DNA of 64,000 nt from Arcticibacter svalbardensis MN12-7 (lineage in GTDB: Bacteria; Bacteroidota; Bacteroidia; Sphingobacteriales; Sphingobacteriaceae): assembly GCF_000403135.1 (NCBI RefSeq), contig NZ_AQPN01000145.1:1-64000 (forward strand), given 5' to 3'. A program made the translations under genes and the position numbers. Of the stretch, positions 46,964 to 53,296 are shown piece after piece. Numbering within the stretch: the stretch's first letter is position 1; each line of letters begins with the position of its first letter. Below the pieces are notes generated by a model, which searched no databases, had not been told where the DNA came from, and saw nothing but the letters and a program-made list of their open reading frames with translations.

Positions 46964-47758
46964 ATGGGAAAATTTGACATTAAATCGTTGTTCCTCGTTA
47001 TCATTACTGCCTTATCATCAAGCTGTTCAAAAAACGAAGACCTGGCAAACCTCGTCACAAACAAGAGTACTATTCTTGAGTATGCTGTACCATTAGGATC
47101 AGTAAATTTCAATGAAACTTCATTAATAAAACTCGGTTTAAGCCCGCTGAAAGTTCCAAAATTGACAGCAAAACCATTAATTGGAACAACCAGAATCTTT
47201 ACTCTGATATCCGTTCCATCAGCTGAATATATTAAGGCAACCAAGCTAGTAGATATATCAAAACTTATACCTGGAAGTTTTTATCACCAAATAGGCACAG
47301 AAGACTTTTACCTTTCCTTATTTACTCGTTTTGACGAAGAACTCAGCTTTCAAAAACTAAAGGGAAGTGCATCCACTTATGGCTGGAACTGCCATTGGAA
47401 CAGGCCCCCCTTTGTAGAAAAGGAACACCCCGATATTTTGTTCAATCCTGATTTCCGTGGAGAATTTCTTATTGTGTTATCAAAACCCTGTACAGAATTT
47501 GGTTTTGAGCTTGCCCCCAACATTAAAAATAAAAACACAAATTTCATAGGCTTTTATGGAAATGGAAACTGGGACTACAGTTCCGGCAAAATTTCCGCAT
47601 TAACAACCTTTAGCCCTTCTGGAGCACGTTTATTTGCAATAAAATCAACAAGGCCTTTTACTACAGTGACCCTTCACTGGGGTGAATATGCAAATGCAGA
47701 GAACTATACCCCAGGAGGATCTGCAATAGCAAACATCAGGTACACGCTAGCTGAGTAG
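46964..47758 (+). CDS. Lipoprotein, first of two tandem paralogs
   Basis: 264 residues. N-terminal FLVIITALSSSCSKNEDLAN is a signal peptide with lipobox SSSC, so it is likely an outer-membrane lipoprotein. It shares a clear pattern with the next gene: YAVPLGS, LVDISKLIPGSFYHQIGTEDF, GWNCHWNRPPFVEKEHPDILF, LSKPCTEFGFELAPNI and YTPGGSAIANIRYTLAE at the end. The FGFEL and GGSAIANIRY pair recalls the beta-sandwich found in secreted proteins of other groups, but I cannot assign a family. The gene pair is flanked by intergenic regions of over 200 bp, so it is an independent unit. Confidence 0.8.
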   Translation: MGKFDIKSLFLVIITALSSSCSKNEDLANLVTNKSTILEYAVPLGSVNFNETSLIKLGLSPLKVPKLTAKPLIGTTRIFTLISVPSAEYIKATKLVDISKLIPGSFYHQIGTEDFYLSLFTRFDEELSFQKLKGSASTYGWNCHWNRPPFVEKEHPDILFNPDFRGEFLIVLSKPCTEFGFELAPNIKNKNTNFIGFYGNGNWDYSSGKISALTTFSPSGARLFAIKSTRPFTTVTLHWGEYANAENYTPGGSAIANIRYTLAE

Positions 47759-47786
47759 TCATCAAAGATCTTAAAGCATGATACGT

Positions 47787-48593
47787 ATGAAAAAATCTTC
47801 CCACAATTTTTTATTGGTGGCCTTAATTGCCACAACCCTATCCAGCTGTTCTAAAAAAGAAACCTTTACAGATGTCGTTCCGGAGAAAGATGATCTGGCT
47901 CAAACTTCAATCTACACCATCCCATTAGGTACAGGAACCCATAATGACACTTTAACCATCCACTTAAATTTACCTCCTATAAATTACCCTCTTGTACCAG
48001 ACGATACAGGGGACGGAAGTACAGGAGAACACACGTGGATCGAATTCCTAAATCCTGATTACCTGAAGGAAACTTGCCTGCTGGATATTTCAAAACTAAA
48101 AGCAGGATATTTTTACCATCAGATCGGCACTAAAAGTTTCTCTGTGGCTTTTTTCGACAGGGATGAGGAAAGAATTTGCATGCAAAAGCTTAAGGCCAAC
48201 AAACCGACTCCCCTTGGCTGGAGTTCCGAATGGAACATCCCACCTTATGTGGAAAAGAAAAACCCTGAAGTATTGTTCAATTCCACAGATAATGGCTCCT
48301 TTACCTTTGTACTGTCAAAACCCTGTACAGAATTTGGTTTTGAACTCACCCCCAACATACAAGGTGAAAATGTAAATTATACAGTCATTTATGGAAATTA
48401 TCAATATGACGGCACCTCCGGAGAGATTCAACCATTAACCGTTTACAACCCAGGGTTGGCACGCATCTTTGCACTGAAAGCTAAAAAGTCATTTACCGTA
48501 GTTGAAGTAATATCTTACGATGATCCGGATGAAGTTGGGTATACTGCTGGAGGATCAGCGATTACGAACATCAGGTATACGTTAGCTCAATAA
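47787..48593 (+). CDS. Lipoprotein, second of two tandem paralogs
   Basis: 268 residues from ATG 47787 (an in-frame ATG at 47778 is also possible). Signal peptide and lipobox are FLLVALIATTLSSCSKKE. It matches its neighbour along nearly its full length: IYTIPLGTGTHNDTLTIHLN, LLDISKLKAGYFYHQIGTKS, GWSSEWNIPPYVEKKNPEVLF, LSKPCTEFGFELTPNI and YTAGGSAITNIRYTLAQ. It starts 29 bp after the first copy. Both copies keep the same four or five blocks and differ elsewhere, as expected for an old duplication. Function unknown. Confidence 0.8.
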   Translation: MKKSSHNFLLVALIATTLSSCSKKETFTDVVPEKDDLAQTSIYTIPLGTGTHNDTLTIHLNLPPINYPLVPDDTGDGSTGEHTWIEFLNPDYLKETCLLDISKLKAGYFYHQIGTKSFSVAFFDRDEERICMQKLKANKPTPLGWSSEWNIPPYVEKKNPEVLFNSTDNGSFTFVLSKPCTEFGFELTPNIQGENVNYTVIYGNYQYDGTSGEIQPLTVYNPGLARIFALKAKKSFTVVEVISYDDPDEVGYTAGGSAITNIRYTLAQ

Positions 48594-49923: not shown

Positions 49924-52017
49924 ATGCAAGGTTTTAGAACAGAGCTAGAGAATCCGCTGGTACAGAAAGATATAATTGACCTGGAGAAGAAGATAAGGTT
50001 ATTTAGAGACGGTCAATTAGATGGAGAGAAGTTCCGGAGCTTAAGGTTGGCAAGAGGCGTTTACGGCCAAAGACAACCAGGGGTACAGATGATCCGGATC
50101 AAACTTCCTTATGGAAAACTGAGTATTCAACAGCTTTATCGTATTTCTGATGTATCCGATGAATACGCAACAGGAAATTTACACATTACTACCCGTCAGG
50201 ATATACAACTCCACTATGTGAGTTTAGAGCGCACTCCTGAGTTATGGGCCGAACTGGAAAAAGACTCCGTAACTCTGCGTGAGGCTTGTGGAAATACCGT
50301 CCGTAATGTAACGGCATCTCCAGAAGCAGGTGTAGATCCGGATGAAGCTTTTGATGTTACTCCGTATGCACAGGCTACATTTGAGTATTTTCTTAGAAAC
50401 CCGATCTGTCAGGATATGGGAAGAAAGTTCAAGATGTCCTTTTCTTCTTCTGAATCAGACACGGCTTATGCCTATATGCATGATATCGGTTTTATTCCTA
50501 AGGTAAAGATCGAAAATGGCGTTGAAGTACGTGGGTTTAAAGTATATCTGGGAGGAGGTTTAGGATCTCAGCCACATATTTCAGAATTCGTGACTGACTT
50601 CATGCACGAAGATCTCATCATTCCTTTTGCAGAATCTGTGATCCGTGTGTTCGACCGTCATGGTGAACGCGCGAAACGAAATAAAGCCCGCTTAAAGTAT
50701 CTGATCCAGGAAATGGGCAAAAAGGCCTTTCTTGAATTGGCAGAGAAAGAGCGTTTGGCATTAAAGAACAAAACATTCAAAATAAGTCGCGATTTCGATT
50801 TCACTTTACCGGCTTCTGTCATTCAGCCGGCTATAGAGCTTCTTAATCCGGTTAAATATGAGCAATGGAGAAAGACGAATATCTTCCCTCAGAAACAAGA
50901 AGGTTATGTTTCCGTTGGAATCCGTGTTCAAAACGGGGATATTAAAACGCCTATAGCACGTAAACTGGCAGAAATAGTTCGTGATACTGCAGCTGATGAT
51001 ATCCGCCTGACGAATACACAGGGCATCTTACTTCGCTATGTGAAGGAAGAAAACCTGCCTTACTTATTTCAAAAACTGGATGAGCTTTATTTAGCTGAAC
51101 CTGGTTTTGGCAGTGTGCTTGACATTACCTCATGCCCTGGAACAGACACTTGTAATCTTGGTATTTCAAACAGTACCGGCATTACACGAGAGCTGGAAAA
51201 GGTGATGACAGCCGAATATCCTGAACTTATTTATAATAAAGATATTACCATTAAAATAAGTGGTTGCATCAATGCTTGCGGTCAACATGCCCTGGCAGCT
51301 ATAGGTTTTCATGGCTCCAGTATGAAGATTGGCAAACTCGTTGCTCCTGCTTTACAGGTGTTACTGGGTGGAGGATCTACTGGCGACGGCGCAGGTGTTG
51401 CTTCTGAAAAGATTATTAAAATTCCTAGCAAAAGAGGTCCGCAGGTGCTGCGTGCTATCCTGGACGATTATTTTGATAATAGTCAGGAAGGTGAGTTGTA
51501 CAATGACTATTACATCAGACAAGGAAAGATTTATTTCTATGACCTGCTGAATCCTTTGGCGAAACCTGAAGATATTACTCCGGATGATTTCATTGACTGG
51601 GAACATACCGAGCCCTACGTTACTGCAATTGGAGTGGGTGAATGTGCCAGTGTAATGATTGACCTGGTTGCCACTTTACTTTATGAAGCAGAGGAACGAA
51701 TTCAGTGGGCTGATGAGGCATTGGAAGCTGGTGAATATGCAGATTCCATTTATCATTCCTATACTGGTTTTGTCAACTCAGCTAAGGCACTGTTGGTATC
51801 AGAAGGAGTGAAGACAAATACGCAAGCTGGAATTATAAGAGATTTTGATACTACTTTTGTTGATACCAGCAAAATTACCCTTCCTTCCAGTTTCAATGAG
51901 TTGGTTTATCAAATGAATCAACAAGAACCGGGTAAGGACTTTGCTACCTATTACTTTCAGCAGTCTAGTTTATTTAACCAACAGCTGAAAGATTACAGAA
52001 CGCTCCAAACAGCTTAA
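49924..52017 (+). CDS. Siroheme/Fe4S4 sulfite (or nitrite) reductase with a C-terminal HEPN-like domain
   Basis: 697 residues. Two ferredoxin-like/siroheme repeats make the enzyme, with the Fe4S4-siroheme cysteines at 404 and 410 (CPGTDTC) and 448 and 452 (CINAC). Active-site Arg/Lys-rich blocks include TGNLHITTRQDIQLHYV. It reduces sulfite to sulfide, or nitrite to ammonia, with six electrons; the electron donor is ferredoxin or an unlinked flavoprotein. Residues from about 575 onward are not part of the family. They form a helical domain, LLYEAEERIQWADEALEAGE then YADSIYHSYTGFVNSAKALL, that looks like HEPN, without an RxxxxxH nuclease motif. The siroheme synthase gene follows 3 bp after the stop. 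Confidence 0.92.
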   Translation: MQGFRTELENPLVQKDIIDLEKKIRLFRDGQLDGEKFRSLRLARGVYGQRQPGVQMIRIKLPYGKLSIQQLYRISDVSDEYATGNLHITTRQDIQLHYVSLERTPELWAELEKDSVTLREACGNTVRNVTASPEAGVDPDEAFDVTPYAQATFEYFLRNPICQDMGRKFKMSFSSSESDTAYAYMHDIGFIPKVKIENGVEVRGFKVYLGGGLGSQPHISEFVTDFMHEDLIIPFAESVIRVFDRHGERAKRNKARLKYLIQEMGKKAFLELAEKERLALKNKTFKISRDFDFTLPASVIQPAIELLNPVKYEQWRKTNIFPQKQEGYVSVGIRVQNGDIKTPIARKLAEIVRDTAADDIRLTNTQGILLRYVKEENLPYLFQKLDELYLAEPGFGSVLDITSCPGTDTCNLGISNSTGITRELEKVMTAEYPELIYNKDITIKISGCINACGQHALAAIGFHGSSMKIGKLVAPALQVLLGGGSTGDGAGVASEKIIKIPSKRGPQVLRAILDDYFDNSQEGELYNDYYIRQGKIYFYDLLNPLAKPEDITPDDFIDWEHTEPYVTAIGVGECASVMIDLVATLLYEAEERIQWADEALEAGEYADSIYHSYTGFVNSAKALLVSEGVKTNTQAGIIRDFDTTFVDTSKITLPSSFNELVYQMNQQEPGKDFATYYFQQSSLFNQQLKDYRTLQTA

Positions 52018-52020
52018 AAT

Positions 52021-52713
52021 ATGGTTGAAACTCCAGCAAAGAATCCGCTGTTTCCAATATTTGTCAAATTACATACCCTCAATCTGCTTCTTGTAGGTGG
52101 AGGGTATGTGGCATTAGAAAAGTTAGCTACTTTACTGATTAACAGTCCGGATGCTAAAATAAAACTAGTGGCGGGCATAATCAGTAATGATGTGCATGCC
52201 GTTTTAAAGGAGCATAACATTCCTTTTGAAGAACGGGATTTTGAGGTGAGGGATCTGGAAGATGTTGACCTGGCAATTGTTGCTATAAATGATGGCCAGA
52301 TCAGCTCTAAGATTGCCGCTGCTTGCAAAGAGCGCAAGGTGCTCACAAACGTAGCGGATCAACCTGCGATTTGCGATTTCTATTTAGGGTCGGTTGTTCA
52401 AAAAGGGAATCTCAAAATTGCCATATCGACAAATGGTAAGTCGCCTACTATTGCAAAGCGAATTAAAGAGATGCTGAATGAGACCATTCCGGATGAAATG
52501 GAAGATCTGCTTAACAATATGCAACGCATCCGCAATGGCTTAAAAGGAGATTTTACGGAAAAAGTAAAACAGCTCGATGCCATCACAAGTGTTTTAATCG
52601 ATAATAAGAATAAAAAATCGGTCTTTCGGACATTCCTCTATATGCTGTCTTATATCATCGCTATTCTGTTTCTCATGATTGCTGGATATTATATCCTTTC
52701 CGCATTGTTGTAG
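52021..52713 (+). CDS. Precorrin-2 dehydrogenase / sirohydrochlorin ferrochelatase (Met8/CysG-N type), C-terminal membrane anchor
   Basis: 230 residues. The Rossmann part has LLLVGGGYVALEKLATLL, and KVLTNVADQPAICDFYLGSVV and AISTNGKSPTIAKRIKEML are the family's catalytic and dimer motifs. It turns precorrin-2 into siroheme, the cofactor of the preceding reductase. The last 28 residues (LYMLSYIIAILFLMIAGYYI) form a clear transmembrane helix that standard Met8/CysG proteins lack. Thus siroheme synthesis may be held at the inner membrane. It starts 3 bp after the reductase stop. Confidence 0.9.
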   Translation: MVETPAKNPLFPIFVKLHTLNLLLVGGGYVALEKLATLLINSPDAKIKLVAGIISNDVHAVLKEHNIPFEERDFEVRDLEDVDLAIVAINDGQISSKIAAACKERKVLTNVADQPAICDFYLGSVVQKGNLKIAISTNGKSPTIAKRIKEMLNETIPDEMEDLLNNMQRIRNGLKGDFTEKVKQLDAITSVLIDNKNKKSVFRTFLYMLSYIIAILFLMIAGYYILSALL

Positions 52714-52761
52714 TCTTTCTATAATATCTATAGAGTTTGCACGTTGCTAATAATTAAATAT

Positions 52762-52769
52762 TATCTTTG
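52762..52769 (+). promoter_or_regulatory. -7 box of the Rrf2-type gene
   Basis: TATCTTTG at 52762-52769 with a TTTG at 52736-52739 (22-base spacer). The transcript should start near 52773, downstream of the TTG at 52767, so that TTG is unlikely to be the start codon. Confidence 0.5.
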
Positions 52770-53296
52770 ACACAGACTTTACATACCATTTATTTTGCTA
52801 ACAAAAAAACCAAATATGCAGTAAAGGCCTTAATGGCTTTAGCAAGGAATAAAGGTAATGCTCCCATGCTCATTTCATCTATTGCCACAAATGAACAACT
52901 TCCAAAGAAGTTTTTAGAGGCAATACTTTTAGAGATGAAGCGCAATGGTTTTTTGGCCAGTAAAAAAGGTGCAGGAGGTGGTTATTACCTGATGAAAAAG
53001 GCAGAAGATATTAAACTTGCTGCCATTATTCGGATCATTGATGGTCCTATTGCCCTGTGCCTTGTGTGAGTTTGAACTTTTACGAAAAATGTGACGAATG
53101 TACCAGTGAAATATATTGCGGGATTCGCGATGTAATGATAGACGTGAGGGATGCTACACTGAAGATTCTCGGCGAAACCAGTCTGGCGGATATGATCGAA
53201 AGAGAAGACCGTTTGAAAGCACTATTGTTGGAAGAACAGTCCAAAAACAAATCAGAAGAAGACTTAAAGGGTAACTTAGGAGAAGTAATATCCTAA
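52767..53296 (+). pseudogene. Rrf2-family transcriptional regulator, frameshifted
   Basis: Two open pieces (52767-53069 and 53057-53296) together make one Rrf2 protein of about 165 residues. The winged-helix part is KKTKYAVKALMALARNKG, LPKKFLEAILLEMKRNGFL and KGAGGGYYL, followed in the other frame by the cysteine region PCVSLNFYEKCDECTSEIYC and the dimer helix. The break is at IDGPIALCLV-stop; one base lost in GCCCTG-TGCCTTGTGTG restores IALxPCVSLN. The 5' end is also odd: there is no ATG, and the -7 box places the transcript start after the first TTG. The cysteines would hold an Fe-S cluster or sense thiols. Adjacent to siroheme/sulfite genes, it probably regulated them. Confidence 0.85.

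Follow-up and report, generated by a model that had tools for sequence, protein, structure and literature searches.

What does a HEPN domain do at the end of a sulfite reductase? The question is raised by a gene in a 64,000-nucleotide stretch of the Arcticibacter svalbardensis MN12-7 genome (contig NZ_AQPN01000145.1, positions 1 to 64,000; hereafter the window), which encodes a siroheme-dependent reductase with a helical C-terminal tail and is followed by a Met8-like siroheme synthase gene. A preliminary description of this DNA, made from the letters alone, had proposed that the tail docks a membrane-held synthase. We found that the tail is a HEPN domain that is standard in one Bacteroidota reductase clade, and that it is joined to the catalytic core by an arm carrying a conserved cysteine, Cys574. 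Our preferred, though tentative, reading is that this arm handles sulfur at the siroheme while the HEPN domain serves as a cap or dock.

A NirA-type core with a cysteine arm

The gene product is a NirA/SirA-type siroheme-Fe4S4 reductase. Its core consists of two ferredoxin-like half domains and two siroheme/Fe4S4 domains, and two NIR_SIR_ferr (PF03460) and two NIR_SIR (PF01077) stretches were detected by Pfam over the cut-off. The cluster cysteines C404, C410, C448 and C452 were invariant in a 32-row alignment of reductases (alignment A1). Mycobacterium tuberculosis NirA reportedly carries a covalent Cys-Tyr bond; at the place of this pair, the window reductase has C122, situated in an EACG block, and Y47, which by eye we take to be the tyrosine partner. 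Alignment with the NirA sequence of 1zj8 ran from residue 56 on with 26% identity, and the modelled core (AlphaFold, 32 sequences, pLDDT confidence 77.8) matched the 1zj8 structure with a VIA-align Z of 30.3 over residues 43-539. The core domains, the cluster cysteines and the EACG block with C122 are thus common to both proteins, whereas structural similarity stops at model residue 539 and NirA has neither arm nor HEPN domain. The reductase scored 239.8 bits against the NCBIfam NirA family NF007126, below its cut-off of 523, and we therefore regard it as a relative of NirA rather than an equivalog. The best explanation is that the gene encodes the single-chain enzyme used for assimilatory sulfite reduction by a large clade of Bacteroidota.

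Relatives were drawn from a collection scan that confirmed 98, the best 80 of which were analysed as loci (L numbers), with all genes within 6 kb of the reductase taken as its neighbourhood. The 80 loci span Sphingobacteriaceae, Chitinophaga, Pontibacter, Flavobacterium, Emticicia and others; one of them (L071) is labelled Klebsiella, a label that is probably wrong given its Flavobacterium-kind sequence. An open reading frame (ORF) of more than 650 aa was obtained from 78 loci and, together with the window, these formed a 79-row alignment. The two loci outside it are L016, where the gene is broken into two reading frames, and L075, which is cut by a contig end.

The ordinary reductase core extends to about residue 540 and is followed by the arm (546-580), with the HEPN helices starting at 581. 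In a wide alignment, all 28 clade members had the arm motif GECA, and none of the 7 outgroup reductases did. We also counted the motif in all stop-ended frames that matched the window reductase, with no motif filter; 21 duplicates and 2 frames without a stop were set aside, and the 143 distinct frames were split into a clade (at least 250 bits, 136 frames) and an outgroup (below 250 bits, 7 frames). GECA occurred in 135 of the 136 clade frames, followed by 90-220 residues in 126 of them and placed at the C-terminus in 9, and in none of the 7 outgroup frames. The sole clade frame without it comes from L016 and covers half of the split gene there.

The nine HEPN-less relatives (L112/L134, L135-L141 and L145) all terminate in GEGECA(A/V)-stop. 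Their eight source genomes all belong to a single genus in another class, and one of these genomes contributed two of the proteins. Since these proteins keep the cysteine at their very C-terminus, Cys574 seems to serve the reductase core and not the HEPN domain. A paralogue in the window's own genome has kept GECA though it lost C122 and H97, and C122 is lost too in the arm-only protein of L136. The cysteine arm and the HEPN-less forms that end in it are the new element of this analysis, and no description of either was found in a limited literature search (DsrC, C-terminal arm, assimilatory reductases).

The tail is a HEPN domain without the nuclease motif

A HEPN domain on the C-terminus of the reductase, as first suggested from the letters, proved to be real. 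PF05168 matched residues 584-652 with 23.4 bits in the whole reductase, and a search with residues 575-697, which the preliminary description had called for, gave 27.5 bits (cut-off 22). Placement of this domain of some 120 residues directly after Cys452 did not hold, as the end of the core and the arm intervene. The AlphaFold model predicted helices at 581-601, 605-626, 634-646, 657-661/663-666 and 671-696, and the tail modelled alone reached a pLDDT of 94.2. The best solved HEPN match of the full model was 2hsb (AF_0298), with a Z of 16.1 and a root-mean-square deviation (rmsd) of 2.7 over 118 residues; 2hsb was again on top for the tail alone (Z 15.9, rmsd 2.7, 118 aligned). It shares the fold with the tail at 20-21% identity and differs in being a stand-alone chain of 126 residues. 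The sacsin HEPN domain (3o10) has the same fold, with a Z of 12.7-13.2 and 7% identity. Because Z values below about 13 may mean little in helical bundles, the fold assignment leans on 2hsb and the Pfam match and not on the lower-scoring rows. Foldseek E-values for 2hsb were modest (0.022 and 0.0026). Among the best 60 of 272 matches of the tail sequence to the PDB, we saw antibody chains, a chance similarity.

The tail residues D607, Y610, Y613, A620, K621, L624, F641, F673, Y677 and F684 were invariant among the 32 rows, and no invariant histidine was found in the tails of the aligned rows. The HEPN nuclease pattern Rx4-6H occurred in 4 of 79 tails, at two different places, and is thus not conserved, in agreement with the earlier remark that the RNase motif is missing. 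With the usual nuclease motif absent, a non-nuclease role is the likelier one; the tail has probably lost RNase activity, and a toxin or RNase function was rejected.

Distribution and history of the fusion

The spread of the fusion across Bacteroidota was counted in 296 genomes (G numbers). At 1e-20 the reductase was matched in 62 genomes, with 67 matches in total, 49 of which (48 genomes) reached 1.1e-99 or better and constitute the reductase clade. As many as 47 of these 49 extend beyond residue 640; the HEPN profile A2 found the tail in 42 of them, and the remaining 5 (G254, G219, G030, G188 and G074) have divergent tails that align with the HEPN tail although the profile misses them. The two shorter clade matches are cut by a contig end (G200) or stop at the arm (G039). 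The other 18 matches are other reductase types, which end at or before residue 548. The HEPN tail is therefore standard in this reductase clade and was not seen in other types, so that the possibility raised at the outset, a tail common to all sulfite reductases, does not apply. In the window's own family, the enzyme was present in 130 of 151 genomes.

PF05168 fades among distant members. In seven other reductases that were scanned, only the own-genome paralogue passed the cut-off (33.6 bits); L118, L115 and L109 stayed below it with 20.9, 16.4 and 13.6 bits, and no match was obtained for L110, L113 or the arm-only L112. Among the divergent tails, Pfam thus left two without a match (L110, L113) and one sub-threshold (L109), and the tail of L113/L114, blank in Pfam for L113, was weakly HEPN-like by hhalign (probability 81.8%).

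A free-standing source of the domain was not found with profile A2 in the 296 genomes: every one of its 42 strong matches (41 genomes) sits in a frame 694-746 aa long, and five weak matches (E 1.2e-6 to 5.1e-6) lie in frames of 130-435 aa. Since A2 misses the five divergent tails, its reach is limited and a source may exist. In a tree of the core, 27 arm-bearing rows fell on one side of a branch with support 90/91, which is below the tree's mark for firm support and is accompanied by long outgroup branches. The tree requires two changes for HEPN, and one loss and two gains are hence indistinguishable. In the same tree, the window copy clusters with L005, a Flavobacterium and L120 and not with Mucilaginibacter; transfer is possible.

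The fusion itself has probably been tabulated before, without the enzyme being named. Table 1 of Anantharaman and colleagues (2013; PMC3710099) contains a HEPN-T family 'Cpin_6617', marked 'No' for Rx4-6H, for which fusions with a ferredoxin-domain dyad are given in Bacteroidetes and Nitrospirae. Pfam names the reductase half domains ferredoxin-like, and for this reason 'Cpin_6617' is probably the present fusion; it differs in that the main text of that paper, in the portion available, does not contain the words 'sulfite', 'siroheme' or 'reductase'. The available portion of PMC4102429 does not mention the fusion, and literature searches for HEPN with sulfite or nitrite reductase, or for Bacteroidetes or Flavobacterium sulfite reductase, showed no paper on it among those listed.

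Possible roles of the arm and the tail

In the mechanism we favour, Cys574 would be carried by the flexible arm to the entrance of the siroheme pocket, would take up or guard reduced sulfur there and, by a DsrC-like logic, would pass it on as a persulfide or trisulfide. The HEPN domain would hold the arm tip, as a non-enzymatic cap or as a dock for a partner or a second subunit. The likeness to DsrC with DsrAB would be one of idea only, namely a cysteine on a C-terminal arm that serves a siroheme sulfite reductase; DsrC is a separate protein outside the window reductase's family, and no Pfam match to the DsrC family was found in this reductase up to E 1. DsrC receives a sulfur intermediate from DsrAB, according to the accessible part of PMC10229431. 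The accessible part of PMC13188885 reports that four assimilatory reductases, all from outside Bacteroidota, yield zero-valent sulfur directly, and that a part for DsrC in assimilation is so far without evidence. A cysteine on an arm of the reductase itself could provide a carrier of this kind. Some neighbouring genes would suit such a role. A TusA gene lies directly 3' of the reductase in two deep relatives (L113:7882-8136 and L114:7901-8152), genes for ThiF, DsrE and JAB proteins were confirmed farther downstream of TusA in L113, and rhodanese genes lie within about 1.5 kb of 2 of the 9 arm-only reductases.

Several points weigh against this proposal. Invariance among near relatives is a weak argument by itself, since A1, with 32 rows, has 174 fully conserved columns out of 697. 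The arm-only proteins all belong to one genus and thus make up one evolutionary case, which lowers our confidence, and the tree is silent on whether this genus lost HEPN. The reach of Cys574 to the siroheme is something we infer, with an arm predicted at low confidence. The TusA neighbours are all from one family and the rhodanese neighbours all from one genus; at the Flavobacterium, Chitinophaga and Pontibacter loci no sulfur-carrier gene was noticed, in a survey that was not aimed at carriers, and those loci show only enzymes expected to use sulfide.

The strongest competitor, possible though less probable, is purely structural: GECA would pack against or cap the siroheme pocket, or make a dimer, and HEPN would stabilise the chain, with no sulfur chemistry at Cys574. 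In its favour, the HEPN domain is modelled at high confidence as a compact bundle, Bacteroidia members carry it as a constant component of the enzyme, and no measurement points to chemistry; yet a structural role leaves unexplained why the cysteine is kept in 135 of 136 frames, including at the free C-terminus of the nine arm-only proteins.

A bolder version of the sulfur-handling mechanism, which we consider rather unlikely, is a built-in sulfur carrier. Cys574 would enter the pocket and come out as a persulfide or trisulfide loaded with sulfur at the zero-valent or sulfide level, which it would deliver to TusA, rhodanese or sulfhydrylase, with HEPN as a swinging domain.

It is unlikely that HEPN or the arm is a docking site for an electron donor, such as ferredoxin with a thioredoxin-reductase-like flavoprotein. 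A gene for such a flavoprotein is present at 33 of 80 loci (TRX_reduct 142.9 bits, below cut-off), and ferredoxin-like ORFs, whose profile scores (L064, L052) are below cut-off, at 4 of 80 loci and at L115 and L117. Ferredoxin as the electron donor, a trait of the NirA/SirA type, is hinted at by these neighbours only. However, Chitinophaga and Sphingobacteriaceae HEPN reductases lack these genes within 6 kb, and no such tail is present in the solved cores of NirA and maize sulfite reductase, both relatives of the ferredoxin type.

Very improbable is a HEPN domain that binds or cuts RNA and couples sulfur supply to translation: according to the portion of PMC3710099 available, the superfamily consists mostly of RNases and RNA binders, motif-less members are thought to bind RNA, and a conserved acidic residue is placed in helix 2, where the invariant D607 lies, but the tails have neither an aligned Rx4-6H nor an invariant histidine.

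The Met8-like neighbour and its hydrophobic helix

The next gene, 3 bases downstream of the reductase gene, is intact by profile (TIGR01470, 123.4 bits against a cut-off of 62.3). Like Met8 and the N-terminal domain of CysG it combines PF13241 and PF14824, to which some Bacteroidota, unlike those proteins, add a helix or a whole TauE/SafE domain. The single C-terminal hydrophobic helix ascribed to it in the preliminary description is present (about residues 200-228, mean hydropathy 1.87); residue 22, within the Rossmann domain, exceeds the same hydropathy threshold, which is therefore not specific by itself.

That description had read the helix as part of a membrane-held channel, in which HEPN docks the anchored Met8 and siroheme is handed straight to the reductase. 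The adjoining genes and the one helix, common to the closest relatives L001 and L004, speak for it, yet the near relative L002, with an 80% identical reductase, is without the helix. Among 72 Met8-like ORFs at HEPN-reductase loci, hydrophobic segments behind the enzyme domain numbered none in 53, one in 4 (L001, L004, L033 and L035) and five to seven in 15. The long Met8 of L065 (8791-10347) is a fusion to TauE/SafE (Pfam TauE, 1.8e-32); of the 15 multi-helix proteins, this one was checked with Pfam, nine were aligned as fusions and the others were classed by segment count. The Met8-TauE fusion was found in 17 of 296 genomes (14 by a near-full-length match; G007, G091 and G269 by both halves in one frame), 7 with a HEPN reductase and 10 without, and thus in only 7 of the 41 genomes with a HEPN reductase. 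The HEPN tail is present with or without a membrane part on Met8, and we rejected the channel, which is most improbable on these counts.

In L005, L006, L007 and L047, the helix that precedes TauE can be aligned with the window helix, with LMxxGxxxxS in common. The best alignment score was 43, against 24.5 ± 4.2 in 500 shuffles whose maximum was also 43, and alignment to the linker of L065 or L013 was unconvincing; the match of the L065 fusion to the window Met8 ORF extends into the linker (query 28-257). Judged from this weak alignment, the helix may be the leftover of a Met8-TauE fusion, which is a simpler reading than a channel. The best explanation is that the neighbouring Met8 simply supplies siroheme and that its membrane helix is incidental. 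No description of Met8 (siroheme synthase, precorrin-2 dehydrogenase) fused to TauE was found among the papers listed in literature searches. On contig C47 of the same genome (L133), TauE is encoded by a gene of its own, which shares 68% identity with the transporter half of the fusion in L065 and lies, by eye, near a sulfhydrylase-type pyridoxal phosphate enzyme.

Gene neighbourhood and other reductases

The reductase of the relatives is mostly encoded with sulfate-assimilation and siroheme genes. At the 80 loci, the neighbouring clusters were Met8 or TauE (72), CobA (67), CysN (53), CysD (52), Rrf2 (48), CysH (47), homoserine sulfhydrylase (44) and the thioredoxin-reductase-like flavoprotein (33). 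The CobA, CysH and CysD clusters were identified through own-genome genes matched to profiles, the sulfhydrylase, Rrf2 and flavoprotein clusters through one profiled representative each, and CysN by eye. The window's genome has its CobA gene on contig C44 and a group of CysH, CysD and CysN genes on C132. The coordinates of the window features are given in Table 1.

Table 1 Features of the reductase locus, in window positions
Feature	Position	Strand	Size or basis
Reductase ORF (sulfite/nitrite type)	49924-52017	+	697 aa; position as in the preliminary description
Reductase core, residues 1-546	49924..51561	+	Pfam, invariant columns, 1zj8 alignment and structural match
Arm, residues 546-580	51559..51663	+	Predicted flexible; pLDDT <50 at 559-579; contains GECA
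GECA, residues 572-575 (Cys574 codon 51643-51645)	51637..51648	+	Clade-wide alignment and frame count
HEPN domain, residues 576-697 (last 122)	51649..52014	+	Pfam, fold match, invariant columns
Met8/CysG-N type precorrin-2 dehydrogenase / sirohydrochlorin ferrochelatase	52021..52713	+	230 aa; position as in the preliminary description; PF13241, PF14824
Rrf2-family regulator, frame split	52744..53296	+	rrf2_super over cut-off for 100-aa ORF

The Rrf2 gene is intact in Arcticibacter eurypsychrophilus, and its split form in the window is a pseudogene or an assembly error. Upstream, two similar lipoprotein-like ORFs lie in tandem by eye (46964-47758 and 47778-48593). In two deep relatives, similar ORFs of about 205 aa without a Pfam match lie between the reductase and cobA (L109:4120-4746 and L111:7166-7771).

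A second HEPN reductase, 48% identical to that of the window, is encoded on contig C90 of the same genome (L106:7466-9562). Its neighbours are nifA- and nifV-like genes (just under the cut-offs), a pyruvate:ferredoxin oxidoreductase gene (over the cut-off), and 2Fe-2S ferredoxin-like and modE-like genes. This paralogue has possibly changed its substrate. Among the 151 family genomes, two reductase matches were seen only in the window's genome and in G489 of the same genus. A reductase of another type (L123:4105-6036, G050) has, by eye, a MoaD/ThiS-like sulfur carrier ending in GG at its C-terminus.

Implications

The enzyme serves sulfite reduction in a large part of Bacteroidota and shows a HEPN domain built permanently into an enzyme of core metabolism; the literature trace that we found of its tail and hinge is probably one table row. 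A built-in carrier, if true, would be the intramolecular counterpart of DsrAB-DsrC in assimilation. Sulfur carriage by the arm cysteine, if real, would link assimilatory with dissimilatory sulfite reduction in mechanism and would bear on the recent claim that the product is zero-valent sulfur and not sulfide.

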